From Ulvibacterium sp. (GTDB lineage: Bacteria > Bacteroidota > Bacteroidia > Flavobacteriales > Flavobacteriaceae): a DNA stretch of 64,000 bases. Location: the NCBI RefSeq assembly GCF_028285715.1, contig NZ_JANQOO010000017.1:124001-188000 (forward strand). Direction: 5' to 3'. The notes beneath the pieces were generated by a model. It did not search any database, was not told where the DNA came from, and worked only from the letters and a program-made list of their open reading frames with translations. Positions 4,383-41,710 of this stretch are shown here, piece after piece (within the stretch, counting starts at the first letter, position 1; every line of letters begins with the position of its first letter). The position numbers and the translations under genes are program-made.

Positions 4383-4398
4383 TTTTTTACCTTTGGGT

Positions 4399-4770
4399 AT
4401 GAAACAACTTCTTCTTGTTTTTCTGGGAGGTGGTATTGGGAGCATGCTCAGATTCGTTATCTCACGAATATTCAACAATTATTTTCAGTACTTTTTTTTA
4501 GGGACTTTCTTGGTCAATATCATAGGTTGTTTACTTATAGGTATTGTTTTAGGCCTATCTTTTAAAGGCAATTATCTTACACAAAATCAAATATTGGTGT
4601 TGGCCACAGGTTTCTGCGGTGGTTTCACCACATTCTCCGCTTTCGCCTTTGAAAAACACTCTCTTCTCAGTTCAGGAGAACTCCTATACTTCCTGTTATA
4701 CACCTTATCCAGCATCGTTTTCGGTATCGTTGCCATCGCTTTGGGATTGTGGTCGGTCAAATTGTTATAA
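4399..4770 (+). CDS. crcB: fluoride efflux channel CrcB/FluC
   Basis: GGGIGSMLRFVISR...GTFLVNIIGC...GFCGGFTTFSAFAFE family signature. Confidence 0.93.
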   Translation: MKQLLLVFLGGGIGSMLRFVISRIFNNYFQYFFLGTFLVNIIGCLLIGIVLGLSFKGNYLTQNQILVLATGFCGGFTTFSAFAFEKHSLLSSGELLYFLLYTLSSIVFGIVAIALGLWSVKLL

Positions 4771-4943: not shown

Positions 4944-4963
4944 ACCCATAAAATATATGGGGT
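4944..4963. promoter_or_regulatory. dyad ACCC-N12-GGGT, distal copy upstream of glnK
   Basis: ACCCATAAAATATATGGGGT; see findings. Confidence 0.55.
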
Positions 4964-4995: not shown

Positions 4996-5015
4996 ACCCC
5001 CTCTTTTTTTGGGGT
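4996..5015. promoter_or_regulatory. dyad ACCC-N12-GGGT, proximal copy upstream of glnK
   Basis: ACCCCCTCTTTTTTTGGGGT; 52 bp from the distal copy. Confidence 0.55.
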
Positions 5016-5032
5016 TATGATTTTTTTAACAA

Positions 5033-5040
5033 TATATTTG
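5033..5040 (+). promoter_or_regulatory. Bacteroidetes -7 element of the glnK promoter
   Basis: TATATTTG matches TAnnTTTG, 24 bp before the glnK ATG. Confidence 0.5.
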
Positions 5041-5064: not shown

Positions 5065-5403
5065 ATGAAACAAGTCGAAGCAATTATCAGAAAATCCAAA
5101 TTTGATGATGTCAAGGATGCATTACATCAAATAGAGGTCAACTTCTTTAGTTACTGGGACGTAACTGGGGTTGGAAATGAAAAACAAGGACATGTATATC
5201 GAGGTATTTCCTATAGTACCACTGATATACAGAGAAGGTACCTATCTATAGTGGTATCGGATGAGTTTTTGGAACGAACGGTGAACGCCATCTTGGAATC
5301 GGCCTATACAGGTAATGTAGGGGACGGTAAAATATTTGTCTCCGAGGTCATAGAGGCCTACAGGATACGCACCAAGGAAAATGGACAGGCGGGAATAAAC
5401 TAA
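5065..5403 (+). CDS. glnK: P-II family nitrogen regulator
   Basis: 112 aa; MKQVEAIIRKSKFDDVKDAL...GNVGDGKIFVSEVIEAYRIRTKE. Confidence 0.93.
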   Translation: MKQVEAIIRKSKFDDVKDALHQIEVNFFSYWDVTGVGNEKQGHVYRGISYSTTDIQRRYLSIVVSDEFLERTVNAILESAYTGNVGDGKIFVSEVIEAYRIRTKENGQAGIN

Positions 5404-5431: not shown

Positions 5432-6664
5432 ATGGACGCAGGATTATTTACAGCAAATAATGTATGGATGATGTTGGCTACGGCCTTGGTATTTTTCATG
5501 CATACGGGTTTTGCCTTTCTGGAGATTGGCTTGACCCGACAAAAGAATACGATTAATATTCTTTTCAAGAATATTTTCATTATTACAGTGGGCCTTTTGC
5601 TTTACTACGCATGGGGTTTCAATTTAATGTATCCCGGTTTTGAGGATGGGGATTCAGGTTTTCTAAAATTCGCAGGTTTTGGAATAGGGGCTCCTGAAGG
5701 TGGCATGACTCCGGACTATGCGGATGGAGGATATACTTGGTGGACTGATTTCCTCTTCCAGGGGATGTTCGCGGCCACAGCGGCTACAATAGTATCAGGA
5801 GCCGTTGCCGAACGTATCAAAATCGGTTCTTTTATGATTTTTACCGTAATCTATGTCGGATTGGTTTATCCAATAGTTGGAGCATGGAAATGGGGTGGTG
5901 GTTTCTTGGATTCCTGGGGTTTCTATGACTTTGCAGGGTCTACATTGGTACATTCTGTTGGAGGATGGGCCGCATTAGTAGCTATAGCCCTATTAGGTGC
6001 TAGAATAGGTAAATTTGGGGATGACGGAAAACCCAAGGCCATTCCTGGCCATAGTATACCTATGGCTACTGCCGGTGTTCTTATTCTGTGGTTAGGTTGG
6101 TTCGGATTTAATGGAGGGTCCGTGCTTTCAGCAGACCCGGAATTAACTTCCTTGGTCTTAGTTACCACATGTTTGGCCGCAGCGGCCGGTGGAGTGGGTG
6201 CATTTTTCCTTTCTACGGTTCTCTATAAAAATTTGGACTTGACTATGTTCCTTAATGGAATACTTGGCGGATTGGTAGGTATAACCGCAGGAGCAGACCT
6301 TATGTCCCCCAACGAAGCGGTGGTTATCGGTTTTATCGCCGGCCTTATCATCGTGGGCGGTGTAGCCCTCATCGATAAACTAAAGTTGGACGACCCTGTA
6401 GGTGCAGTTACCGTTCACTTAATCTGCGGTATCTGGGGAACATTGGCCGTAGGTATCTTTGGGTCTATGGCCGGGGGTGGTCAATTTATGACCCAATTGT
6501 ACGGTGTACTTATCATTGGAGCATTCTGTGTGGTGACTTCCCTAATTATTCTGGGTGCACTAAAAGCCATTATGGGTCTGAGGGTATCCAAAGAAGAAGA
6601 AGTAGAGGGCTTGGATATTCACGAACATGGAATGGACGCTTATCCCGATTTTACAAATGACTAA
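5432..6664 (+). CDS. amtB: ammonium transporter
   Basis: 410 aa Amt family; FMHTGFAFLEIGLTRQKN, DFAGSTLVHSVGGWAAL, HLICGIWGTLAVG. Confidence 0.95.
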   Translation: MDAGLFTANNVWMMLATALVFFMHTGFAFLEIGLTRQKNTINILFKNIFIITVGLLLYYAWGFNLMYPGFEDGDSGFLKFAGFGIGAPEGGMTPDYADGGYTWWTDFLFQGMFAATAATIVSGAVAERIKIGSFMIFTVIYVGLVYPIVGAWKWGGGFLDSWGFYDFAGSTLVHSVGGWAALVAIALLGARIGKFGDDGKPKAIPGHSIPMATAGVLILWLGWFGFNGGSVLSADPELTSLVLVTTCLAAAAGGVGAFFLSTVLYKNLDLTMFLNGILGGLVGITAGADLMSPNEAVVIGFIAGLIIVGGVALIDKLKLDDPVGAVTVHLICGIWGTLAVGIFGSMAGGGQFMTQLYGVLIIGAFCVVTSLIILGALKAIMGLRVSKEEEVEGLDIHEHGMDAYPDFTND

Positions 6665-6707: not shown

Positions 6708-6781
6708 ACTAAAACCTTCTTCAAAAAGTTTAAATCATCATCAAATATAAAATCCCTATGGGATGTTTAAAATCTAAACTT

Positions 6782-7846
6782 ATGAAAACGATTACAAATA
6801 CAAATTTCGTAAAAAATATAGTTCTTTTGGCCATTATGCTTGTTGGAGTAGTATCTTTTGCCCAGGAGGATGACGAAGAAGAAAAGAAATTCTCCTTTAG
6901 TGGAACGGTGGATGCCTATTACAGAGCCAATCTCAACTCTGCAAACTCAGGGGAAAATTACTCGGCCCCAGGTAGTTCATTTGCAAATTTACCCGGTTTT
7001 GCCTTAGGTATGGCCAACGTAATTGCCTCTTATGAAGGAGAAAAAGTAGGTTTTGTGGCTGATTTGGTCTTTGGACCACGGGGTACGGATGCCGTTTTTG
7101 CCTCTCCAATGTATTCAGCTACGGGAGATATCGTCAACCAATTATATGCTTACTGGAACGTTAGTGAATCAGTGACATTGACCTTTGGTAACTTCAACAC
7201 CTTTTTAGGCTATGAAGTAATTTCGCCTTCAGCAAACTTTAATTACAGCACCTCTTATTTATTCTCTTACGGGCCTTTTAGCCATACGGGGTTAAAAGCC
7301 GATTTTGCATTGTCCGATGATTTTAGTTTAATGTTGGCCATAATGAACCCGACCGACTTGACGGAATTTAATCCGGTGGGTCAGTATGCTTATGGTGTGC
7401 AATTGGGCTATAGCGACCAATATCTCAACTTACTTATAGACAATGGTTCTTTTGAGGTAGATTACACAGGAGGGTTTAATCTTTCCGACGACTTCTTCTT
7501 GGGTATAAACGCCGCCTATTTTAGTGGTGATGAGGATGACGGAATCGGAGATTTTGCCGGTGTAGCTCTTTATCCTCAATTGGCAACTTCCGAAAACTTT
7601 ACTATTGGGCTAAGAGGGGAGTATTTTATGGAGACCGACTTCTTTGGTGCGATCGGTGCAAATGATGCCGATGGGGATGCTAGTGTTTTTGCAGTCACAT
7701 TAACAGGTAGTGCCACCATAGGCGACTTAATCCTTAAGCCAGAACTACGTTTGGACAGCGCATCCGAAGAGCCATTTTTGGACTCGGACGGAGAACCTAT
7801 AAGCAGCCTGTCTTCTTTTGTACTAGCAGCTATCTATCAATTTTAA
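6782..7846 (+). CDS. outer membrane beta-barrel (porin-like) protein in the glnK-amtB locus
   Basis: Signal peptide MKTITNTNFVKNIVLLAIMLVGVVSFAQ; alternating beta strands, aromatic C-terminus ...AAIYQF. Confidence 0.75.
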   Translation: MKTITNTNFVKNIVLLAIMLVGVVSFAQEDDEEEKKFSFSGTVDAYYRANLNSANSGENYSAPGSSFANLPGFALGMANVIASYEGEKVGFVADLVFGPRGTDAVFASPMYSATGDIVNQLYAYWNVSESVTLTFGNFNTFLGYEVISPSANFNYSTSYLFSYGPFSHTGLKADFALSDDFSLMLAIMNPTDLTEFNPVGQYAYGVQLGYSDQYLNLLIDNGSFEVDYTGGFNLSDDFFLGINAAYFSGDEDDGIGDFAGVALYPQLATSENFTIGLRGEYFMETDFFGAIGANDADGDASVFAVTLTGSATIGDLILKPELRLDSASEEPFLDSDGEPISSLSSFVLAAIYQF

Positions 7847-11786: not shown

Positions 11787-12242
11787 TTAAAAGGAAATCT
11801 TTTCCAGTGGAGCATAGGAAACTACTTGGGAAAGGACAATATGGGTACGGGTTTCCCCATATTGAATCAATTTATCGATAAATTTTTCCAAGTGGAATTG
11901 GTCTTTTAAAACGACTTCCATTACAATGTTTTCGTTCCCGGTAATCCGGTAACAGTTGACCACTTCATTGAGCGAGCCCACCATGGCCAGGAACGGCTTC
12001 AGTTTTCCCATAAATGCGCGCAATGTTATGATGGCCTTAAGCTGGTAACCCGATCGGGAATGGGATACCACTGCTTTATAACCTTCTAGGATTCCTGCAT
12101 CCTCCATCTTTTTGACACGCTCGGCAACAGCAGGTGGGGAAAGACCTACTTTTCTACCAATGTCGGCAAAGGATTCACGGGCATTTTTCTGAAGGCGCTC
12201 CAGTATCTTCCAATTCAAATCGTCTATCTTAATATTCAAGGT
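11787..12242 (-). CDS. Lrp/AsnC family transcriptional regulator
   Basis: KIDDLNWKILERLQKNARESFADIGRKVGLSPPAVAERVKKMEDAGILEGYKA; exact start uncertain (ORF extends to 12305). Confidence 0.92.
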   Translation of the reverse strand, partial: TLNIKIDDLNWKILERLQKNARESFADIGRKVGLSPPAVAERVKKMEDAGILEGYKAVVSHSRSGYQLKAIITLRAFMGKLKPFLAMVGSLNEVVNCYRITGNENIVMEVVLKDQFHLEKFIDKLIQYGETRTHIVLSQVVSYAPLEKISF

Positions 12243-12360
12243 TTCTTGGTAAAAAAAATTAGTAATAAAAGCAAAATTAAATAATTGCCTTAAATTCCAA
12301 AGCAAACTTATACTTTACGTTTGTAACTTTAGGGTAACGAATTGCTGGTATAAGAAGTAA

Positions 12361-30632: not shown

Positions 30633-32819
30633 CTATTTGGTAAATAAAAGTTCCCTGTATTTGGCCAGCGGCCACTCGGCATCATCCACCAAACGTTCCA
30701 ATTTATCGGAGTGGTAGCGAATCTTATCAAAATAAGGACGCACGTTATCACAATAGGCTATAGCTTTCTTGGTCAGATCGATAAGGGTATTGGCTTTTTT
30801 CCTTGCCTCTAGCATGCGGTCCGTGCTTTTTTTGATTTCCGAGATATGCTCGGCAATGTTTTCGATAATGTTAAGTTGTCCTTCCGATAAATTTTGATGT
30901 ACGGCCCCATAAATTTCCTTCAAGCCGTTGACATTGGCTATGAGTTTGTTCTGGTATCGGACGGATGATGGTATCACATGATTATAAATCAATTCATTGA
31001 TTACCCTGCCCTCTATTTGAATATGCAGGATATAGGCTTCCAGTTCTACCTCCTGGCGGGCCCTCACCTCTATTTCGCTCATTACCTTCATCTCCTTAAA
31101 AAGAGCAAGACTATCCTTGGCGGTCATTATTTGCAAGGCTTCGGGAGTAGTTTTGTTATTGCTCAATTTTCTTCGCTTGGCCTCCTTTTCCCAATCCTCG
31201 CTATACCCGTCACCGTCAAAACGTATCCTTTTGGAGGTTTTTATATATTCCCTAAGCACGTTAAAAATGGCTTCGTCCTTTTTAAGGTTCTTCTTGTCAA
31301 TAAGTACATCCACTTCCTTCTTGAACATTCGCAATTGTTTGGCAACAATGGTATTCAAAATTGTCATGGGTTTAGCACAGTTGGTTTTTGAGCCTACTCC
31401 CCTCATTTCAAACTTGTTACCCGTAAAGGCAAAGGGTGAAGTACGATTTCTATCCGTATTGTCCAATAGAATTTCCGGAATCTTTCCAACAACGTTTAAT
31501 TTAAGCTCCGTCTTTTCTTCCGGGGATAATTTTCCCTGGGAAACCCCTTCCAATTCGTCCAATACCTCCCCAAGTTGTTTTCCTATGAATATGGAAAGAA
31601 TAGCCGGAGGTGCTTCATTGGCACCTAGCCTATGGTCATTACTTGCGGATGCGATAGAAGATCGCAACAATTCCTCATAATTGTCCACGGCCTTTATCGT
31701 GTTTACGAAAAAAGTCAAAAACTGCAGGTTTTTCATTGGTGTAGAACCCGGACTCAATAAATTGACCCCGGTATCCGTGGCCAGGGACCAATTGTTATGC
31801 TTTCCGGAACCATTGATGCCGGCAAATGGTTTTTCATGGAACAAAACCTTAAAGTTATGTGTGTCGGCTATTTTTTCCATTACGTCCATAAGCAAAAGGT
31901 TATGGTCCACGGCCAAATTGGCTTCCTCAAATACGGGGGCCAGTTCAAATTGGTTGGGGGCTACCTCATTATGTCTCGTTTTGACCGGAATACCCAATTT
32001 GGTACATTCTTTTTCCAAATCGCTCATGAAGCTCAATACCCTATTTGGGATTACTCCAAAATAGTGATCGTCCAGTTGTTGTCCCTTGGCCGCCAAATGC
32101 CCCAACAGTGTGCGACCCGTTAGGACAATGTCGGGACGGGAGTAGGCCAAGGCCTTATCGATCAAAAAGTATTCCTGCTCCCAACCCAAGGTTGCATTGA
32201 CTTTTGAGACATTCTTATCAAAATATCTTGCAACAGCTGTGGCCGCTTCATCCACAGCATGTAATGCCCTTAGCAAAGGAGCCTTGTTGTCCAGGGCCTC
32301 ACCGGTATAGGAGACGAATATGGTGGGGATACAGAGTGTTGTGCCATAAATAAATGCCGGCGACGTTGGGTCCCAGGCCGTATACCCCCTGGCCTCAAAG
32401 GTGTTTCGTATTCCACCGCTAGGAAAACTGGACGCGTCCGGCTCCTGTTGCACCAATTGGCCACCTCCAAATTTCTCCAATGCCTTGCCATTGGGTAAAA
32501 GATCAAAAAAAGCATCATGTTTCTCGGCAGTTGAGCCGGTCAAAGGTTGAAACCAGTGTGTATAATGCGTAGCGCCGTTGGCGATGGCCCAACCCTTTAT
32601 GGCCTCAGCTACCTGGTCGGCAATTTTTCTTTCAATTTTGGAACCTGAAAAAATGGCCCCCCGAACACTTTCCAAAGCATCTTTGGTAAGGTGTTGTACC
32701 ATTTTTTCGTCATTAAAGACCTGAACGCCGAACAACTCGGAGCGACGACCTTTCTCCTCAATAATTATTCTATTCCTATTTAGACTTTCAGCTAGGGCGT
32801 TAAAACGTGTTTGGGCCAT
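30633..32819 (-). CDS. glnN: glutamine synthetase type III
   Basis: 728 aa; THYTHWFQPLTGSTAEKHDAFF, EKPFAGINGSGKHNNWSLAT, RTSPFAFTGNKFEMRGVGS. Confidence 0.95.
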   Translation of the reverse strand: MAQTRFNALAESLNRNRIIIEEKGRRSELFGVQVFNDEKMVQHLTKDALESVRGAIFSGSKIERKIADQVAEAIKGWAIANGATHYTHWFQPLTGSTAEKHDAFFDLLPNGKALEKFGGGQLVQQEPDASSFPSGGIRNTFEARGYTAWDPTSPAFIYGTTLCIPTIFVSYTGEALDNKAPLLRALHAVDEAATAVARYFDKNVSKVNATLGWEQEYFLIDKALAYSRPDIVLTGRTLLGHLAAKGQQLDDHYFGVIPNRVLSFMSDLEKECTKLGIPVKTRHNEVAPNQFELAPVFEEANLAVDHNLLLMDVMEKIADTHNFKVLFHEKPFAGINGSGKHNNWSLATDTGVNLLSPGSTPMKNLQFLTFFVNTIKAVDNYEELLRSSIASASNDHRLGANEAPPAILSIFIGKQLGEVLDELEGVSQGKLSPEEKTELKLNVVGKIPEILLDNTDRNRTSPFAFTGNKFEMRGVGSKTNCAKPMTILNTIVAKQLRMFKKEVDVLIDKKNLKKDEAIFNVLREYIKTSKRIRFDGDGYSEDWEKEAKRRKLSNNKTTPEALQIMTAKDSLALFKEMKVMSEIEVRARQEVELEAYILHIQIEGRVINELIYNHVIPSSVRYQNKLIANVNGLKEIYGAVHQNLSEGQLNIIENIAEHISEIKKSTDRMLEARKKANTLIDLTKKAIAYCDNVRPYFDKIRYHSDKLERLVDDAEWPLAKYRELLFTK

Positions 32820-32901
32820 AATTTTAACTTAAATTTTCGGCTAAAATAATCATTTAAGGATTTAATAATATATCTGGAAAAAAATAAACTTTTTCCAAAA
32901 T

Positions 32902-32921
32902 ACCCTAACCAAAATAGGGGT
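32902..32921. promoter_or_regulatory. dyad ACCC-N12-GGGT, distal copy between glnN and glnA
   Basis: ACCCTAACCAAAATAGGGGT. Confidence 0.5.
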
Positions 32922-32952
32922 ATCTTAAATTATGTCCATCAATTTGAATTTT

Positions 32953-32972
32953 ACCCCCTAAAAAATTAGATT
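32953..32972. promoter_or_regulatory. degenerate proximal dyad upstream of glnA
   Basis: ACCCCCTAAAAAATTAGATT: intact ACCC half, degraded right half; 51 bp from the distal copy. Confidence 0.35.
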
Positions 32973-32988
32973 AATTCATCAAAAAATA

Positions 32989-32996
32989 TATTTTTG
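32989..32996 (+). promoter_or_regulatory. Bacteroidetes -7 element of glnA promoter
   Basis: TATTTTTG matches TAnnTTTG. Confidence 0.45.
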
Positions 32997-33032: not shown

Positions 33033-34055
33033 ATGAGCAAAGCAAAATTAGAGTATATCTGGCTTGATGGTTATAAACCAACCCAGAACATGCGGAGTAA
33101 AACAAAAATCGAGGATGATTTTAGTGGAAAATTGGAGGACTGCCCTATCTGGTCTTTCGATGGAAGTTCTACGCTACAAGCCGAGGGAGGTTCTTCCGAT
33201 TGTTTGTTGAAACCTGTTGCCATATTTCCGGATCCTGCCCGAAAAAATGGTTACTTGGTAATGAGTGAGGTTCTGAATGCCGATGGTACACCCCACGAAA
33301 GTAACCACAGGGCACAAATAGATGATGAGGATAATGATTTTTGGTTCGGATTTGAGCAAGAATACTTTATAATGGATAAGGATACGCAATTGCCCCTAGG
33401 TTTCCCCGTAGGTGGTTATCCAGGACCCCAAGGCATGTATTATTGTTCGGTTGGTGGCAAGAATACCCATGGAAGGGATTTTGTTGAGGAGCATGCTGAT
33501 CTATGTATCGAGGCCGGAATAAACTTTGAAGGTATTAATCAAGAAGTGGCCAGTGGACAATGGGAATTCCAAATTTTTGCTAAAGGGGCAAAAAGTGCGG
33601 GAGACCAAATTTGGGTAGCTCGTTACCTATTGGATCGACTAACGGAACAATATGGCTATTACATAGAATATCATCCAAAACCGATAAAGGGAGATTGGAA
33701 CGGGTCTGGAATGCATGCCAACTTTTCCAATACCACTTTACGTACTGCAGGTTCCAAAGAGGTATATGAACAAATATGTGAAGCTTTCCGCCCTGTTGCC
33801 AAAGAGCACATTGCGGTTTATGGTGAATTCAATGACCAGCGCTTGACCGGTCTTCATGAAACAGCTTCCATAAACGATTTTAGCTATGGCGTTTCAGATA
33901 GAGGTGCTTCTATCCGTATCCCCATTGCTACGGTAGAAAAGGGATGGAAAGGCTGGCTTGAGGATAGAAGACCAGCTTCCAATGGAGATCCTTACAAGAT
34001 TGCGGGTAGAATAGTAAAAACCGTTAAATCGGCAGACATAAAAGCCACCGCCTAA
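33033..34055 (+). CDS. glnA: glutamine synthetase, type II (eukaryote-like, beta-grasp domain)
   Basis: 340 aa; KLEYIWLDGYKPTQNMRSKTK, IWSFDGSSTLQAEGGSSDCLLKP, FGFEQEYFIMD, GINFEGINQEVASGQWEFQ, KPIKGDWNGSGMHANFS. Confidence 0.93.
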   Translation: MSKAKLEYIWLDGYKPTQNMRSKTKIEDDFSGKLEDCPIWSFDGSSTLQAEGGSSDCLLKPVAIFPDPARKNGYLVMSEVLNADGTPHESNHRAQIDDEDNDFWFGFEQEYFIMDKDTQLPLGFPVGGYPGPQGMYYCSVGGKNTHGRDFVEEHADLCIEAGINFEGINQEVASGQWEFQIFAKGAKSAGDQIWVARYLLDRLTEQYGYYIEYHPKPIKGDWNGSGMHANFSNTTLRTAGSKEVYEQICEAFRPVAKEHIAVYGEFNDQRLTGLHETASINDFSYGVSDRGASIRIPIATVEKGWKGWLEDRRPASNGDPYKIAGRIVKTVKSADIKATA

Positions 34056-34150: not shown

Positions 34151-35749
34151 TCAGTCAATTTTGCCAAGTGGCGTGTTCATCCAGTAGTCCTCAACGTTAT
34201 CCGGTCTTGCTATGGGCTGGTTTTCAAAGATAGGTTTGCACTTGTTCATAAAAAGACTATCCTTTGGTGCAGTTTGGCCCAGCCTTACCCGCTGTACAAA
34301 AAACTCCCTGAATTGTTTGTAATCCCGTTGGGTCCATTTATTGACCAGATTGCCTAGGGTGTCCCTTACATTGGCGACCTTTATTGAAAATAAATCATTT
34401 AAATCTGTACCCATTTTTTCAGCCTTCATAATTTCACCTGTCATTGCCATAATTTTTTCCTTTTCCATTTTTGGAAATAAAAAAATCAAGTTTTCCGACC
34501 TTCCGGCACTTTTCAATTTCACGCGCTTCTTTTTAAACTCCACTTTGTAATTGGGAAGATGCACGGACTGTTCTGCATTGGGAATTGTGTTGTATTCCAC
34601 CATAAAACAATTTCTAGCTATATTGTAGGTGATATACTCCACCTTAAAAACCGGAGGAATATTCAATGTAAAACTGTTGTAAAATGAAATGTAGTTCAGG
34701 TACATTTTGTTATGTATTCTTCGATAATCCGTGGTAATATCAAAAATTACTTTTTGATTGTTCCCATGTTTATTCATTTTGCCCGTTTTGTTTCGCTTTT
34801 TTTCATCGTACATGGTATATTCCAATTTATGTATGGCGAAATCCAATTTGGATATATAAATGGTGCCATTAGCTCGATAGTTTGGATAGAATACCCAAAA
34901 CTTAATGGTGTATATTTCTTCTGTATCAATGCTGGTGTCGCTACCTCGTAAGAAATAATGATTTTCAATCAAGTCGGTTTTAAGAGTGCCGATGAAATCG
35001 TAGGAACCCACATTATAGTTTCTTATGGCGTCATGAATTCTTAAAATTCGAAATTCATTACCCCCATAGGCATCCAAATGCGCCTTCTTAATTATTTTAC
35101 GTAATGATCCATAATCATAGGAAGCCCGCGCCAAGGAATCCTGTTCAAAATTATCGTTCAAACCAAAATGGAATAAGCTCGTCTCGGAAGTAGCATCGTC
35201 CAATTGATTAAAGCCTTGATCAAAGACTTCAAGAATGGCTTCATTTAGATTAACGTATTGTTGATCATCGTTTAACTGATAATCCCGGTAATAACCGATG
35301 CTGGAAAAGTAATTTGAGGGAAAATTCCTGGGTATGGCATCAATAGCCCTCTGAACGATTTGCTTGGCATTCAGGTTCCGTTTTCGTCTGCCTTTGGCTT
35401 TGACCACAGCCTCATCCAAACCAAAAACCGCAGGAATTAAGCTCACCACATTCAGCTCGCTTTGACTGAAATCCGTTATGGGTATCTCCTTTGTTTTATA
35501 GCCCATAGATGATATTTCAATGATATTGCCGTACTCCCTGTATTTTAGGGGAATTCTAAAACTACCATCAACATTGGTAATCACACCGAGAGCTCTATCC
35601 TTAATTCGAATGTTGGCAAAAACCACAGGTTCATTTGATTGGGAATCAAGCAATCGGCCTATAATATAATCTTGCCTTTGTGCAAAAGTTTCAAAAGACA
35701 CAAAGAACAACAGGATAAAAACAATGTGATTAAGGTTTAGGCTATTCAT
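34151..35749 (-). CDS. CarboxypepD_reg-like domain protein, paralog 1 of 4
   Basis: IIGRLLDSQSNEPVVFANIRIKDRALGVITNVDGSFRIP; shared C-terminal PIFENQPIARPDNVEDYWMNTPL. Confidence 0.8.
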   Translation of the reverse strand: MNSLNLNHIVFILLFFVSFETFAQRQDYIIGRLLDSQSNEPVVFANIRIKDRALGVITNVDGSFRIPLKYREYGNIIEISSMGYKTKEIPITDFSQSELNVVSLIPAVFGLDEAVVKAKGRRKRNLNAKQIVQRAIDAIPRNFPSNYFSSIGYYRDYQLNDDQQYVNLNEAILEVFDQGFNQLDDATSETSLFHFGLNDNFEQDSLARASYDYGSLRKIIKKAHLDAYGGNEFRILRIHDAIRNYNVGSYDFIGTLKTDLIENHYFLRGSDTSIDTEEIYTIKFWVFYPNYRANGTIYISKLDFAIHKLEYTMYDEKKRNKTGKMNKHGNNQKVIFDITTDYRRIHNKMYLNYISFYNSFTLNIPPVFKVEYITYNIARNCFMVEYNTIPNAEQSVHLPNYKVEFKKKRVKLKSAGRSENLIFLFPKMEKEKIMAMTGEIMKAEKMGTDLNDLFSIKVANVRDTLGNLVNKWTQRDYKQFREFFVQRVRLGQTAPKDSLFMNKCKPIFENQPIARPDNVEDYWMNTPLGKID

Positions 35750-37512
35750 AATGTATCGGTTTTCTTAAGTGGCGTGTTCATCCAGTAGTTCCCAACGTTA
35801 TCCGGTGTTGCTATGGGCTGGTTTTCAAAAATTGGCCTGCGATTGTTCATAAAGAGACTATTGTCCGAGACAGTTTTGCCCGGTCTTACTTGCTGCACAA
35901 AAAACTCCCTAAATTGTTTATATTCCTTATAAACCCGTTTATTAAGATAATTGCCATTGACATCCTTGAGTCTTTCGATAGCTACGCTAAATGCCTTTGG
36001 CATGTTCAATTCAAAACTTCCTTCCTTCAATTCTACCTGAAACATATTCCCAAATCCTTCCTCTATTAAATCGGGGTCAAGTCGTGCTCTGTATATATGG
36101 AGGTCTCCGGTGGTGTACTTGAATTCTTGGGACATCTCCCTGGGGGTATTCTTGGGATCTAACTTAATACTTCGCACTATTTCATCTATTTCGGCCCGGA
36201 TATCCGTAAACTTCCTTTTGGTCCAATCAGGATAGAGGTCAACGGTGTATAGGTAAGGTAGTATTTTTGAAAAGGAAGTTTTCCTATTATGGAAACTGAA
36301 GGTATAGTGCTTTTTGTTTTTAGCAGAGAAAAAATCTACCGCTTCACTGAACCTGACCGTAAAACATTTGCGTGAGTCATCCAAGTAGATTTTACTTACT
36401 ACAAATTTGGGTGGCATTCCCAACTTAAAACTATTGTGGAATGAAATATAATTCAAATACATTTTACCGTACTTTGGTTTGTACTCGGATACTACCTTGA
36501 AAATAAGTTGGTCCTTATCTTTCCTTTTTCGTTTCCGTTTTTCATTACCGGTGTCATAAATGGCATATTCCATCTTATGGATGGCATAGTTCTCTTTGGA
36601 TATTGCAAATTTTCCGGATATTCTTAATCCCGGTTTGGAATTTCTAAACCCTATGCCGTACAAGGCCTGGTCATCCGAATACACATCGTCTTCCCGATCG
36701 AAAAAATGATTGTTCAAAAAATCCTTTTCCAATTGATTTACAAAATCGTAGGAATTGATTTTAAAGTTCCGCACGGCGTCATGAATCCTAAGAATTGTAA
36801 ATTCATTCCCACCATAATTGAACAAATAGGCCCTGTCGATTACCTTTTTCCAAGTCCTATAGTTATAGGGATCATCTGCCAACGTATCCCTTTCGAAATC
36901 CGTGTTCTTTTTGTATTCATAGATTTTAACCTTGGTCGTAGTGCTATCGATTTCGTCAAAACCCAAGTCAAAGGCTTCAAGAATAGCCTCGTTAAGGTTT
37001 ATGTAGTCATTGTTTTGGTCAAGTTGGTAATCCCTGTAATATCCGGTTAAGGAGAACGAATTTTGGGGATAGTTTGTGGGTATAGCCTCTATTGCTTTCT
37101 TTACAATTCTTCTCGCTGACAACCTCCTCTTTTTTCGCGCGATAACCACGGCCTCGGACAGTTCCATGACTCCTTGGGAAAGTTGAATAACATTTATGGC
37201 ATCAGGGGATAGACCGGCCATGGGAATTTCTTTTTTTTGATAGCCCATACTGGAAATGACAAGTATATCCCCAAATTCCTTGAACTTTTTGGGAATGCGA
37301 AATCCCCCACCCTGATTGGAAATGACTCCAATGGCTTTATTTTTTATCCTAATTGTGGCAAAGACCACGGGCTCCCCGGTCTGAACATCCAGTAATTTGC
37401 CCCGAACAAAGTCATTTTGGGAAAAGACCAGAGTACTATAGAAGAACATCAAAAGGTAGTGCATGCATTTCATACGCATAGAAATTGCCTTACCATCAAC
37501 ATCGCGATACAT
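35746..37512 (-). CDS. CarboxypepD_reg-like domain protein, paralog 2 of 4
   Basis: Same architecture; overlaps paralog 1 by 4 bp (start/stop). Confidence 0.8.
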   Translation of the reverse strand: MYRDVDGKAISMRMKCMHYLLMFFYSTLVFSQNDFVRGKLLDVQTGEPVVFATIRIKNKAIGVISNQGGGFRIPKKFKEFGDILVISSMGYQKKEIPMAGLSPDAINVIQLSQGVMELSEAVVIARKKRRLSARRIVKKAIEAIPTNYPQNSFSLTGYYRDYQLDQNNDYINLNEAILEAFDLGFDEIDSTTTKVKIYEYKKNTDFERDTLADDPYNYRTWKKVIDRAYLFNYGGNEFTILRIHDAVRNFKINSYDFVNQLEKDFLNNHFFDREDDVYSDDQALYGIGFRNSKPGLRISGKFAISKENYAIHKMEYAIYDTGNEKRKRKRKDKDQLIFKVVSEYKPKYGKMYLNYISFHNSFKLGMPPKFVVSKIYLDDSRKCFTVRFSEAVDFFSAKNKKHYTFSFHNRKTSFSKILPYLYTVDLYPDWTKRKFTDIRAEIDEIVRSIKLDPKNTPREMSQEFKYTTGDLHIYRARLDPDLIEEGFGNMFQVELKEGSFELNMPKAFSVAIERLKDVNGNYLNKRVYKEYKQFREFFVQQVRPGKTVSDNSLFMNNRRPIFENQPIATPDNVGNYWMNTPLKKTDTL

Positions 37513-37529
37513 ACCCTACTGCCTAGAAG

Positions 37530-39143
37530 TTATTTTAAAGGAGTGTTCATCCAATACTCCTCGAAATCTTCGGGACGAACCATAGCCTGGCCCTCAAAGA
37601 TGGGTTTGTTTTTGTCCATGAATTTACCGTCGTTAGGCAATTTGGTGGAAGGTTTTACCTGCTGTACAAAATATTCCCTAAATTGGTCATAGTCCCTTTT
37701 TTTCCATTCGTGAAGTCTATTCTTGCCCTCCAGATCAAAAATCGGTTCTATTTCAATGGAAAATAAATTATTTAGGTTGATTTTTTTCTTCATAGCCTCA
37801 AAAATTCCCTCAAGAATCTCCTTTCTTTCTTTCTGGGTCATGTCAGGTAGTAAAAACACTTTTTTTTCATTCTTGACCAGGCCGGCCGTCTTAATTTTCA
37901 AACGCTTGCCTTTATACCTTACCAAATAGTTGCCTACATCCCTGGCCTCGTCAGTATTGGGATGACGATTGAATGTTAATTCAAGTCTGAAACCGCCGAT
38001 TCCGCCAGAGGGACTTTTCATCAATCCAATGGTACTGTTCTCTACCTTGAATTTTGGTGGCTCCCATAAAATAAAGCTGTTTTCAAACGAAATATAATTG
38101 AGGAACATCTTTCCGTAGTCGTGCCGCTGATATTCGGTGGTAATTTCAAAAATCAATTGCCCACGGCCTTGGTGCTTGTTCAATTTTCGGTCGGGCAACC
38201 GTTTTCGGTCATCGTACAGGGTGTATTCCATTTTATGTACGGCAAAATCGCCGTAGGAAATGTACAGAATACCGAAGGCACTGTAATGCGGATGTCGCTT
38301 CCTGAATTTTATGGTGTATAGCGCTTCCCCATTGAGATAGGTGTCATTGTCCCTTGAGAAGCTATGATTTTTCAGCAGATCGGTATCCAACTGGTCCACA
38401 AATGAATACGAACCTACCTTATAATTCCGTACGGCATCATGAACCCTTAATATCGAAAATTCATTTCCTCCATAACTATCGAGATAGGCGTTATCCACTA
38501 TTTTCAGCAAGCGCTTGTAATCATAGGGGTCGTCGGCCAGGGTATCCTGTTCAAAATCGGTATTCCTTTTATAATCATAGATGCGCACCTTAGTGGTCGC
38601 TGAATCGATCCGGGAAAAACCTTGGTCGAATACCTCCAAGACGGCCTCGTTCAAATTCACATAATTCCCTTGCTTCAATTGATAATCCCTATAATAACCG
38701 ATTGTCGAAAAGGTATTTAGCGGATAGTTCCTTTTTATATTCGCTATGGCCTTCCGAACAATCCTCCTAGCGGAAAGTTTCCTCTTTTTTTGGGCAGTAA
38801 CCACTGCCTCGGACAAATCTAGGATACCCGGGGCAAGCCTTATGATATTGATATACTCCGGTGATAGACCAGTGATGGGGATTTCCTTTTTTTGGTATCC
38901 CATACTCGAGATGACAAGCATGTCCCCAAGTTCCTTGAACCTGGTAGGAATACGGAAACTGCCATCTTGGTTGGAGATTACCCCCTTGGCCCGGTCCTTT
39001 ACCCGTATCGTGGCAAAAACAATGGGTTCTCCGGTTTGTACATCGAGGAGTTTGCCCCGTATGAAGCTGTCTTGGGAAAAGACTATGGAGCTACAACAAA
39101 AAATCAATAAAGTGCAAATGTATCTAGCGTATTGAAATATCAT
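37530..39143 (-). CDS. CarboxypepD_reg-like domain protein, paralog 3 of 4
   Basis: FIRGKLLDVQTGEPIVFATIRVKDRAKGVISNQDGSFRIP...RPEDFEEYWMNTPLK. Confidence 0.8.
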   Translation of the reverse strand: MIFQYARYICTLLIFCCSSIVFSQDSFIRGKLLDVQTGEPIVFATIRVKDRAKGVISNQDGSFRIPTRFKELGDMLVISSMGYQKKEIPITGLSPEYINIIRLAPGILDLSEAVVTAQKKRKLSARRIVRKAIANIKRNYPLNTFSTIGYYRDYQLKQGNYVNLNEAVLEVFDQGFSRIDSATTKVRIYDYKRNTDFEQDTLADDPYDYKRLLKIVDNAYLDSYGGNEFSILRVHDAVRNYKVGSYSFVDQLDTDLLKNHSFSRDNDTYLNGEALYTIKFRKRHPHYSAFGILYISYGDFAVHKMEYTLYDDRKRLPDRKLNKHQGRGQLIFEITTEYQRHDYGKMFLNYISFENSFILWEPPKFKVENSTIGLMKSPSGGIGGFRLELTFNRHPNTDEARDVGNYLVRYKGKRLKIKTAGLVKNEKKVFLLPDMTQKERKEILEGIFEAMKKKINLNNLFSIEIEPIFDLEGKNRLHEWKKRDYDQFREYFVQQVKPSTKLPNDGKFMDKNKPIFEGQAMVRPEDFEEYWMNTPLK

Positions 39144-39175
39144 GGTGGTAATTTATAAAGTTATCTTTTTTGAAT

Positions 39176-40759
39176 CTATTGTTTTAAAGGGGTGTTCATC
39201 CAATACTCATCGAAATTATCGGGCCTTACAATGGGTTGATCCTTAAATATGGGCCGGTTCTTTTTCATGAGTAGGCTGTCCGGAACCTGTTCGGTATTTT
39301 GTCTTATTTGCTGCACGAAATACTCTCGAAATTGTTGGTAATCCCGGGAAATCCATTTATTCAGCAGATTACCTTTCAAATCCTTAATATCAGATATTTT
39401 AACATCTAGAAACTCCTTTTCGAGTTGACCTCGTTTCCCATGATTTTCAATCTCGTTGAACATAAGTTGTAATTCGGCCTTCTCCATATCGGGGTACAAC
39501 TCCATTACATTTCTCCGAAGATAGCCTCTCACAAACTTTAACTTCCGACCTTGGAACCAAAATTTATAATTTCTCAGGTTTGTGGCTGATTTTCGTACGG
39601 GTAGGTCACTAAAAGTAACGATAAAACATTTTTTGGAAAGGTCAACAGTAATGCCTCGCAGCATAAATATAGGAGCATCCCAGAGCTGAAAGGAGTTATG
39701 AAAGGAGATGTAATTAAGAAACATTTTCCCTTCTACTGGCTTATACTCCATAATTACCTCAAAAACAAGTTGCTTATTGGTATTGTGTCTATTGTTTTTT
39801 TTGACGGCATTCACCTTTAAACGGTCATATAGGGCATACTCTATTCTATGAATTGAAAAATCATGTTTTGAAATATGGAGAATTCCATGAACCCTATGGA
39901 CCGGTAGTGTTAGCCGAAAACCTATGGTATACAAAATGTTATTATCCATATAGGTATCTTCTTCCCAAAAAAAATGGTGGTTTCGCAATAAATCCTGTTC
40001 CAAAACATTTATAAAGTCAAATGAATTGACCTTATAGTTTCTAAGAGCATCATGGATTCTCAGAATAACAAATTCATTACCTCCATAATCCGGAAGGAAT
40101 GCATTATTAATTACCTTTTGTTGGGTATGGTAATTGTACCGTTGCTCGGCCAATGAGTACCTCTTAAAATCCTCATTCCTTTTGTAATCATATATTCTAA
40201 CTTGAGAGGTTTTATGATCCAATTCATCAAACCCCTTATCAAATACTTCAATTATGGCCTCATTAAGGTTTATATAATCGTTTTCCTGGTTTAGTTGATA
40301 GTCCCTGTAATACCCAATGGTGGAAAAAGTGGATTGGGGAAAGTTCTCCGGTATGGCTTCTATGGCCCTTTTAACAATTCTTCTAGGGGACTGCCTTCTT
40401 CTTCTTTTTTTCTTGGCGGTCACTATCGCCTCGGACAATTCCAAAACACCATGGTAAAGACGGACGATGTTAATGTCTTCTGGTGATAGATCGGCTATTG
40501 GGATTTCTTTTTTTTGATACCCCATACTAGAAATAATAAGTACATCCCCTAAAGCCTTGAATCTTTTAGGAATACGAAAACCTCCATCTTGATTGGATAT
40601 GACGCCCATCGCCTTTCCTTTAATCCTAATGGTGGCAAATACCACAGGCTCACCGGTTTGGACATCCAAAAGTTTACCTTTAATAAATTCTTGTTGCCCC
40701 CACATTGGTGGAAGAAATAGGAAAAAGCAAATAATGACAAAGTAATTTAACTTCATCAA
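39176..40759 (-). CDS. CarboxypepD_reg-like domain protein, paralog 4 of 4
   Basis: FIKGKLLDVQTGEPVVFATIRIKGKAMGVISNQDGGFRIP...RPDNFDEYWMNTPLKQ. Confidence 0.8.
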   Translation of the reverse strand: MMKLNYFVIICFFLFLPPMWGQQEFIKGKLLDVQTGEPVVFATIRIKGKAMGVISNQDGGFRIPKRFKALGDVLIISSMGYQKKEIPIADLSPEDINIVRLYHGVLELSEAIVTAKKKRRRRQSPRRIVKRAIEAIPENFPQSTFSTIGYYRDYQLNQENDYINLNEAIIEVFDKGFDELDHKTSQVRIYDYKRNEDFKRYSLAEQRYNYHTQQKVINNAFLPDYGGNEFVILRIHDALRNYKVNSFDFINVLEQDLLRNHHFFWEEDTYMDNNILYTIGFRLTLPVHRVHGILHISKHDFSIHRIEYALYDRLKVNAVKKNNRHNTNKQLVFEVIMEYKPVEGKMFLNYISFHNSFQLWDAPIFMLRGITVDLSKKCFIVTFSDLPVRKSATNLRNYKFWFQGRKLKFVRGYLRRNVMELYPDMEKAELQLMFNEIENHGKRGQLEKEFLDVKISDIKDLKGNLLNKWISRDYQQFREYFVQQIRQNTEQVPDSLLMKKNRPIFKDQPIVRPDNFDEYWMNTPLKQ

Positions 40760-40771
40760 AAATGGAGGTCT

Positions 40772-41710
40772 TTAGGTTACCGTAAAATAGATGAATACGG
40801 TATAAATTCCTACAAGAATTGTGCCATCCCGCCAACCAAGACGCAGTCCTTTGGGCAAGAAAACCAGGGGTAATATCAAAAAGGAAATTCCCAACATCCA
40901 AAAGATATCGTTTTCCAATAATCTCGGGTCTACTACCTGAATCGGCTTAATCATGGCAGTAATTCCGAGAACCGCCAAAAGGTTAAAAATGTTGGATCCA
41001 ATAAGATTGCCAACGGAAATGGCCTTTTCTTTTTGGATAATGGCAATTATGGATGCAGCCAATTCCGGGATACTGGTTCCGACGGACACCACGGTAATTC
41101 CAATGATACGATCACTTACTCCGTAAAAAGTAGCCAAGCCGACAGCTCCCTTTACCAATATTTCCGAGCCTCCCCAAAGCGCTCCTCCCCCTATTCCCAA
41201 CAATAACACGGCTTTATATAGAGGTAAAGGCAGCACGTTTGTGGGGACTCCCTCTACCACAGCAGGCTTTTGATAACGCAACAGATAGACCAAGAATAGA
41301 AACAGGATTAGGAACATGATACCTCCCTCATAACGCTGCAATTCCCCATCAAAATAGATGAATACAAAAAATAAGAGAGAGGATACCATCATCACAGGCC
41401 AATCCGTGACATAAAAGCTCTTTCGAACATCAATACTCCCAATAATAATGATGATGGCAAGGACCAGGCCCAAATTCGCAATATTGGACCCTACGACATT
41501 GCCCAAAGCCAAATCCGGAAATCCGTTTAAAGCAGCATTAACACTGACTATCAGTTCGGGAGCGGAAGTGGCAAAGGAAACCACGGTCATTCCAATTATG
41601 ATTCTGGAAATATGCAAACGAAGGGAAAGTGCCACGGCCGACTTTAGCAACCAATTACCACCGGCGACCAAAAGTATAAGCCCTACTATGATGTAAAATA
41701 CATTCTGCAT
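40772..41710 (-). CDS. calcium/sodium antiporter (CaCA, YrbG-like)
   Basis: Two inverted repeats: GMTVVSFATSAPELIVSVNAAL...GNVVGSNIANLGL and GITVVSVGTSIPELAASIIAI...GNLIGSNIFNLLAVLG. Confidence 0.93.
   Translation of the reverse strand: MQNVFYIIVGLILLVAGGNWLLKSAVALSLRLHISRIIIGMTVVSFATSAPELIVSVNAALNGFPDLALGNVVGSNIANLGLVLAIIIIIGSIDVRKSFYVTDWPVMMVSSLLFFVFIYFDGELQRYEGGIMFLILFLFLVYLLRYQKPAVVEGVPTNVLPLPLYKAVLLLGIGGGALWGGSEILVKGAVGLATFYGVSDRIIGITVVSVGTSIPELAASIIAIIQKEKAISVGNLIGSNIFNLLAVLGITAMIKPIQVVDPRLLENDIFWMLGISFLILPLVFLPKGLRLGWRDGTILVGIYTVFIYFTVT

Follow-up and report, generated by a model that had tools for sequence, protein, structure and literature searches.

Paired ACCCC-N10-GGGGT dyads upstream of nitrogen-assimilation genes in flavobacteria and other Bacteroidia: candidate operators of a shared regulator

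The glnN-glnA intergenic region and the glnK promoter

In this work we have analysed a stretch of 64,000 nucleotides from Ulvibacterium sp. (the window), in which the genes of a type III and a type II glutamine synthetase, glnN (GSIII) and glnA (GSII), are divergently arranged and in which glnK, for a PII signalling protein, is followed by the ammonium transporter gene amt (Table 1). The original prediction had named the two synthetases, and both identities were borne out by Pfam and NCBIfam matches. It had also placed a perfect dyad, a degenerate second site 51 bp further on and a -7 element in the spacer between the two genes, with 87 and 36 bp from the starts of the distal and the proximal dyad to the -7, and we found each of these elements where it had been located. 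The same agreement was seen for the two-site geometry of the glnK promoter, with corresponding distances of 89 and 37 bp. A perfect dyad arose in 8 of 5000 shuffles of the 213-bp glnN-glnA spacer, and a dyad together with a phased ACCCY in none of 5000; likewise, two dyads were obtained in 0 of 5000 shuffles of the glnK intergenic region.

Table 1. Location of the genes and predicted promoter elements in the window
Feature	Position	Strand	Remarks
Distal dyad of the glnK promoter, ACCCATAAAATATATGGGGT	4944..4963	+
Proximal dyad of the glnK promoter, ACCCCCTCTTTTTTTGGGGT	4996..5015	+	spacing to the distal dyad, 52 bp
Predicted -7 of the glnK promoter, TATATTTG	5033..5040	+
glnK, PII signalling protein	5065..5403	+	PF00543
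amt, ammonium transporter	5432..6664	+	TIGR00836, E=4e-120
BBP2 porin, probable third operon gene	6758..7846	+	PF07642
glnN, type III glutamine synthetase (GSIII)	30633..32819	-	divergent; PF12437, E=2.8e-74; PF18318
Possible weak -7 of glnN, TATTTTTT	32879..32886	-	near-match, 35 bp from the distal dyad
Distal dyad, ACCCTAACCAAAATAGGGGT	32902..32921	+	predicted operator, common to glnA and possibly glnN
Proximal site, ACCCCCTAAAAAATTAGATT	32953..32972	+	51 bp downstream of the distal dyad; degenerate in its right half only
Predicted -7 (TAnnTTTG) of the glnA promoter, TATTTTTG	32989..32996	+
glnA, type II glutamine synthetase (GSII)	33033..34055	+	NF041605, E=2.4e-117; PF00120/PF03951

In relatives, porin homologues accompany glnK/amt downstream of the same paired sites. 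The fluoride exporter gene crcB lies directly 5' of glnK in many flavobacteria; in the window it occupies positions 4393-4770, and we saw this neighbourhood in relatives L139, L144, L146, L148, L194, L196, L199, L203 and L360. Downstream of GSII, four tandem minus-strand genes (34151-40759), whose products are 527-588 aa long and all carry an N-terminal CarboxypepD_reg-like domain, stand between GSII and a Na/Ca exchanger gene (40772-41710). An exchanger-like protein is encoded no more than 4 kb from GSII in most relatives, so this gene block looks like a lineage-specific insertion.

Conservation of the paired sites and their target genes

For the comparison with relatives we used 80 GSII loci obtained from one scan of genome contigs; since the relatives are non-independent samples, the counts given here overstate the number of evolutionary events. 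ACCC-N11/12-GGGT occurs within 300 bp upstream in 39 of the 80 GSII loci compared to 0.12 in dinucleotide shuffles, and the two-site arrangement was present in 57 of the 80 upstream regions against 0.16 in shuffles. Reading promoter by promoter, we recognised a shared anatomy in 62 of the loci and in the window (n=63), while the sites were absent from the other 18. This anatomy comprises a distal ACCCC-TAAAAAAATA-GGGGT, situated at about -120 to -143 from the ATG, a distance of mostly 51-54 bp, or five helical turns, to a proximal ACCCC, and then TAnnTTTG. The right half of the proximal site is often degenerate in GSII promoters. In 57/62 promoters the distance from the distal dyad to the -7 is 87-88 bp, and.AnnTTTG is found 86-91 bp from this dyad in 62 of the 63, as in sigma-A promoters of Bacteroidota. 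When the 63 promoters were aligned, the invariant or nearly invariant columns were the C/G half-sites and the -7, including an invariant CC in the proximal left half and the A and TTT positions of the -7, and the spacer varied. We also observed that in some lineages (e.g. L049, L067, L092 and L095) the distal dyad has a decayed outer half-site (AAACCT) and the inner halves of the two sites are kept, which suggests that the inner GGGGT and ACCCC are the most important halves.

The dyads are inverted repeats, and might accordingly be read as RNA structures, a riboswitch or an attenuator, in a longer transcript. We find this reading scarcely credible, however, because the dyads precede the conserved -7, to which they keep a fixed helical phase, and cmscan returned no Rfam family at the site up to E=1.

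The paired sites are found beyond GSII as well. A sequence-only model trained solely on GSII promoters (R1) was run on 30 genomes and recovered sites outside its training set, namely at glnK-amt-porin operons, in the glnK/gltB intergenic region and at ald, the alanine dehydrogenase gene. The glnK-amt-porin operons are divergent from gltB in several genomes; in Winogradskyella and relatives (L195, L205, L207, L204), glnK-amt or porin-glnK-amt faces away from gltB across paired sites. Possibly gltB is also a target, although a weaker one than the others, because the intergenic regions are shared with glnK and its own promoter is without a good pair. When 40 relatives were searched for the single-dyad pattern, non-coding matches were obtained at GSIII/GSII, glnK-amt, porin-amt and ald; we read the other matches as terminators, coding or unexplained. 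Taking the best second dyad anywhere 22-130 bp from the best dyad, we found it at 51-54 bp in 27 of 28 nitrogen promoters outside the training set, where 4% would be expected. Some of these validation loci had come from R1 or from two-site patterns, so that the 13 promoters found by the single-dyad pattern alone provide a cleaner test of the spacing; the partner was at 51-54 bp in 12 of them. The exact two-site pattern matched 14 times in 395 Bacteroidia genomes, compared to five times for a reversed control, and 11 of the 14 matches adjoin GSIII/GSII, glnK, amt or ald. Among them are matches at GSIII in three families that do not belong to the order. The suggestion in the original prediction that the two-site geometry reflects a shared regulator thus gains support, and it reaches further nitrogen genes and other families. 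Recurring across many marine flavobacteria and some distant Bacteroidia, the paired sites point to shared nitrogen control.

Could the dyads nevertheless have arisen by chance in AT-rich intergenic DNA, or be functionless passengers of the glnN-glnA pair? The bare pattern taken by itself would allow it. The window alone holds four exact dyad matches against 0.54 expected, only a modest excess, as 2 of 100 shuffles also reach four, and the whole 5.0-Mb genome shows no enrichment, with 25 matches compared to 44 for the reversed control. Outside the three nitrogen sites, all matching places but two fall in open reading frames of at least 90 codons; the two exceptions (L001 and L019) have GC-richer cores, whereas the three nitrogen sites are intergenic with AT-rich cores. 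Against chance stands the repetition of spacing and phasing at the unlinked glnK, ald and porin-amt promoters and in other families, together with half-sites that are conserved amid variable flanking spacer DNA. We give this explanation virtually no probability and, as far as sequence allows, regard it as already refuted, conservation across species being the decisive evidence that the dyads are real.

Association with GSIII and a proposed mode of action

The presence of the sites follows the position of GSIII. Each of the 63 site-bearing loci has a divergent GSIII gene no more than 4 kb upstream of GSII, and none of the 18 site-free loci does. Comparison with other flavobacterial glnN/glnA intergenic regions had been proposed as a check of the original prediction, and it turned out in its favour, as the sites are kept in 63 of 63 loci with the same arrangement. 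In Winogradskyella, five species have both the sites and the adjacent GSIII, and W. wandonensis (L041) has neither at its GSII locus. R1 gave no convincing nitrogen match elsewhere in the genomes with a site-free GSII; its sole match below E=1e-3 in these genomes was in G057, away from nitrogen genes. The sites are therefore best seen as part of a GSIII-centred regulon, which GSII would join by its divergent placement. Might the distal dyad then also serve glnN, as had been suggested? GSIII-only promoters in other genomes do bear sites, which face GSIII. On the other hand, TAnnTTTG occurs on the glnN strand 33-40 bp from the distal dyad in just 9/63 loci, so that the geometry is rigid towards glnA and not towards glnN. 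A function of the distal dyad for glnN is plausible.

From the sites, their spacing and phasing to the -7, their target genes, their conservation and their joint occurrence with GSIII, all of which can be seen directly in the genomes, we infer that one protein binds, that it activates rather than represses and that nitrogen is the signal. It is probable, in our view, that a dimeric regulator of a Bacteroidia nitrogen-assimilation regulon binds both dyads, most likely activating sigma-A promoters. According to the model we propose, a regulator dimer would recognise a 20-bp dyad, ACCCC-(AT-rich N10)-GGGGT, and bind it twice on the same face of the DNA, 51-54 bp or five helical turns apart. Provided that TAnnTTTG is located near -7, the centres of the dyads would fall at about -40 and -90 from the transcription start, and the proximal site would overlap the -33 region. 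One dimer would contact RNA polymerase beside sigma and the second would act from upstream; centres near -40 and -90 are typical of promoters with a sigma-adjacent activator dimer plus an upstream dimer. The bound regulator would most likely activate sigma-A promoters with a good TAnnTTTG as their -7 and usually no TTTG at -33, and under nitrogen shortage glnA, glnN, glnK-amt-porin and ald, possibly gltB too, would be switched on. TTTG was found at the -33 position in just 18/62 promoters, and its scarcity agrees with what would be expected of activator-dependent promoters. A weak -33 is not specific to these promoters, since no genome-wide -33 motif was found in Flavobacterium johnsoniae, a result cited in PMC7366714.

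Activation is argued here from geometry, and a proximal site over -33 would suit a repressor equally well. Is it possible that a repressor bridges or co-operatively fills the same paired operators and blocks -33 when nitrogen is plentiful? The five-turn spacing would suit co-operative binding or a small loop, and GlnR and AmtR repress nitrogen genes in other phyla. However, contact-dependent activation better accounts for the fixed distance of each site from the -7 and for the usual absence of TTTG at -33, and in GSII promoters the proximal dyad is often the weaker one, which would be odd for a blocking site. We therefore judge repression unlikely and prefer activation by the dimeric regulator.

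Candidate regulators and known systems of nitrogen control

Which protein could bind these sites? In the genomic contexts that we read, we saw no recognisable regulator gene following the paired sites, and our search for the regulator compared the presence and absence of protein families across genomes with and without sites. Genome G033 (1.6 Mb, 92% complete) carries two dyads at its GSIII and has no detectable GerE, cNMP/Crp (0 matches to PF00027 and PF13545), Lrp/AsnC or Rrf2 protein; because this site-bearing genome is without them, all four families are disfavoured as the general regulator. In addition, G046 has only weak matches to GerE (LuxR/NarL) in long proteins, Rrf2 is likewise absent from G041, G042, G045 and G143, and an Lrp gene near glnK is kept in the site-less G040. 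An Lrp/AsnC regulator is encoded in the window at 11787-12305, 6-7 kb from glnK, and related genes lie 5-21 kb from glnK or GSII in several genomes, some of them near motif-bearing loci. In about 30 of the 80 relatives (L024-L103), GSII is followed at a distance of 1-3 kb by a gene pair that encodes a BlaI/MecI-like repressor together with an M56 (BlaR1-like) peptidase. This pair is an unlikely regulator, as it is present at 89% identity in the motif-less W. wandonensis.

It may be that the regulator is a small MerR-type protein of about 110-150 aa which occurs throughout the order and works in a TnrA/GlnR-like manner, perhaps through GSIII. Such a protein is present in every motif-bearing genome tested, G033 included, operators of the MerR family are dyads of 18-21 bp, and the strict tracking of GSIII by the sites would fit. 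But it is equally present in most site-less genomes, so that its presence does not track the sites, it is kept with a near-identical helix-turn-helix where no site is detectable, and it sits in a conserved peptidase-MerR-LemA cluster unrelated to nitrogen; we hold this identification to be quite improbable. Every motif-bearing genome tested has TetR proteins, as has nearly every other genome, in a count that does not distinguish orthologues. The small MerR protein, TetR and further families such as XRE, MarR, GntR, AraC, LysR and uncharacterised ones remain candidates for the regulator of the dimer-and-paired-site model.

In the open-licence literature that we searched, nothing relevant was found on a nitrogen regulator or operator of Bacteroidota, which is no proof of absence, and we did not find the paired ACCCC-N10-GGGGT operators described there. 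In Prevotella ruminicola, the transcripts of amtB, glnK, glnN-2 and gltBD shift together with ammonium (PMC5552732); that paper is inconsistent on the direction of the response, and its available part names no transcription factor or promoter motif for it. The available part of a study of mapped starts in F. psychrophilum (PMC9723704) reports no nitrogen regulon and assigns sigma-54 promoters to other functions. Transcriptional control of nitrogen assimilation in Bacteroidota thus appears undescribed in the literature searched. Members of this phylum play a major part in the breakdown of algal and dietary polymers, a carbon-rich diet on which nitrogen becomes limiting, and the operator pair, the target list and the rigid geometry make the regulator directly searchable.

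We tentatively raise the possibility, to which we give somewhat less than even weight, that Bacteroidia own a master nitrogen regulator non-orthologous to NtrC, NtcA, GlnR/TnrA and AmtR, which would act mainly through five-turn dyad pairs on a GSIII-tied regulon, with GSIII perhaps reporting the nitrogen status. In the NtrC/sigma-54 system of proteobacteria, glnA and glnK-amtB are likewise preceded by paired dyads, but the promoters have -24/-12 elements, whereas here the sites precede, at a fixed distance, a TAnnTTTG of the sigma-A type. AmtR, a TetR family repressor in Corynebacterium, controls amt, glnK, glnA and gltBD, an overlapping set of genes, from an operator different from ACCCC-N10-GGGGT. 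Among the operators of GerE-type proteins, the lux box likewise has 20 bp (ACCTGT...ACAGGT) and is centred near -42, and the NarL heptamer TACYYMT resembles TACCCCT; yet the motif-bearing G033 is without a GerE protein. TnrA and GlnR, the MerR family regulators of Bacillus, bind an AT-core dyad upstream of glnRA and nrgAB (amt-glnK) under glutamine synthetase-linked control, but their operator, TGTNA-N7-TNACA, has another spacing than the two ACCCC-N10-GGGGT sites 52 bp apart seen here. NtcA, a member of the Crp family, is the global nitrogen activator of cyanobacteria and acts on glnA, glnN and amt from a dyad that is located near -41 and covers the -35 region. The predicted placement of a dyad near -40 over the -33 at glnA, glnN and amt promoters is much like this arrangement, although the NtcA site is GTA-N8-TAC and the sites described here, usually paired, have the form ACCCC-N10-GGGGT, with half-sites unlike those of the Crp type.
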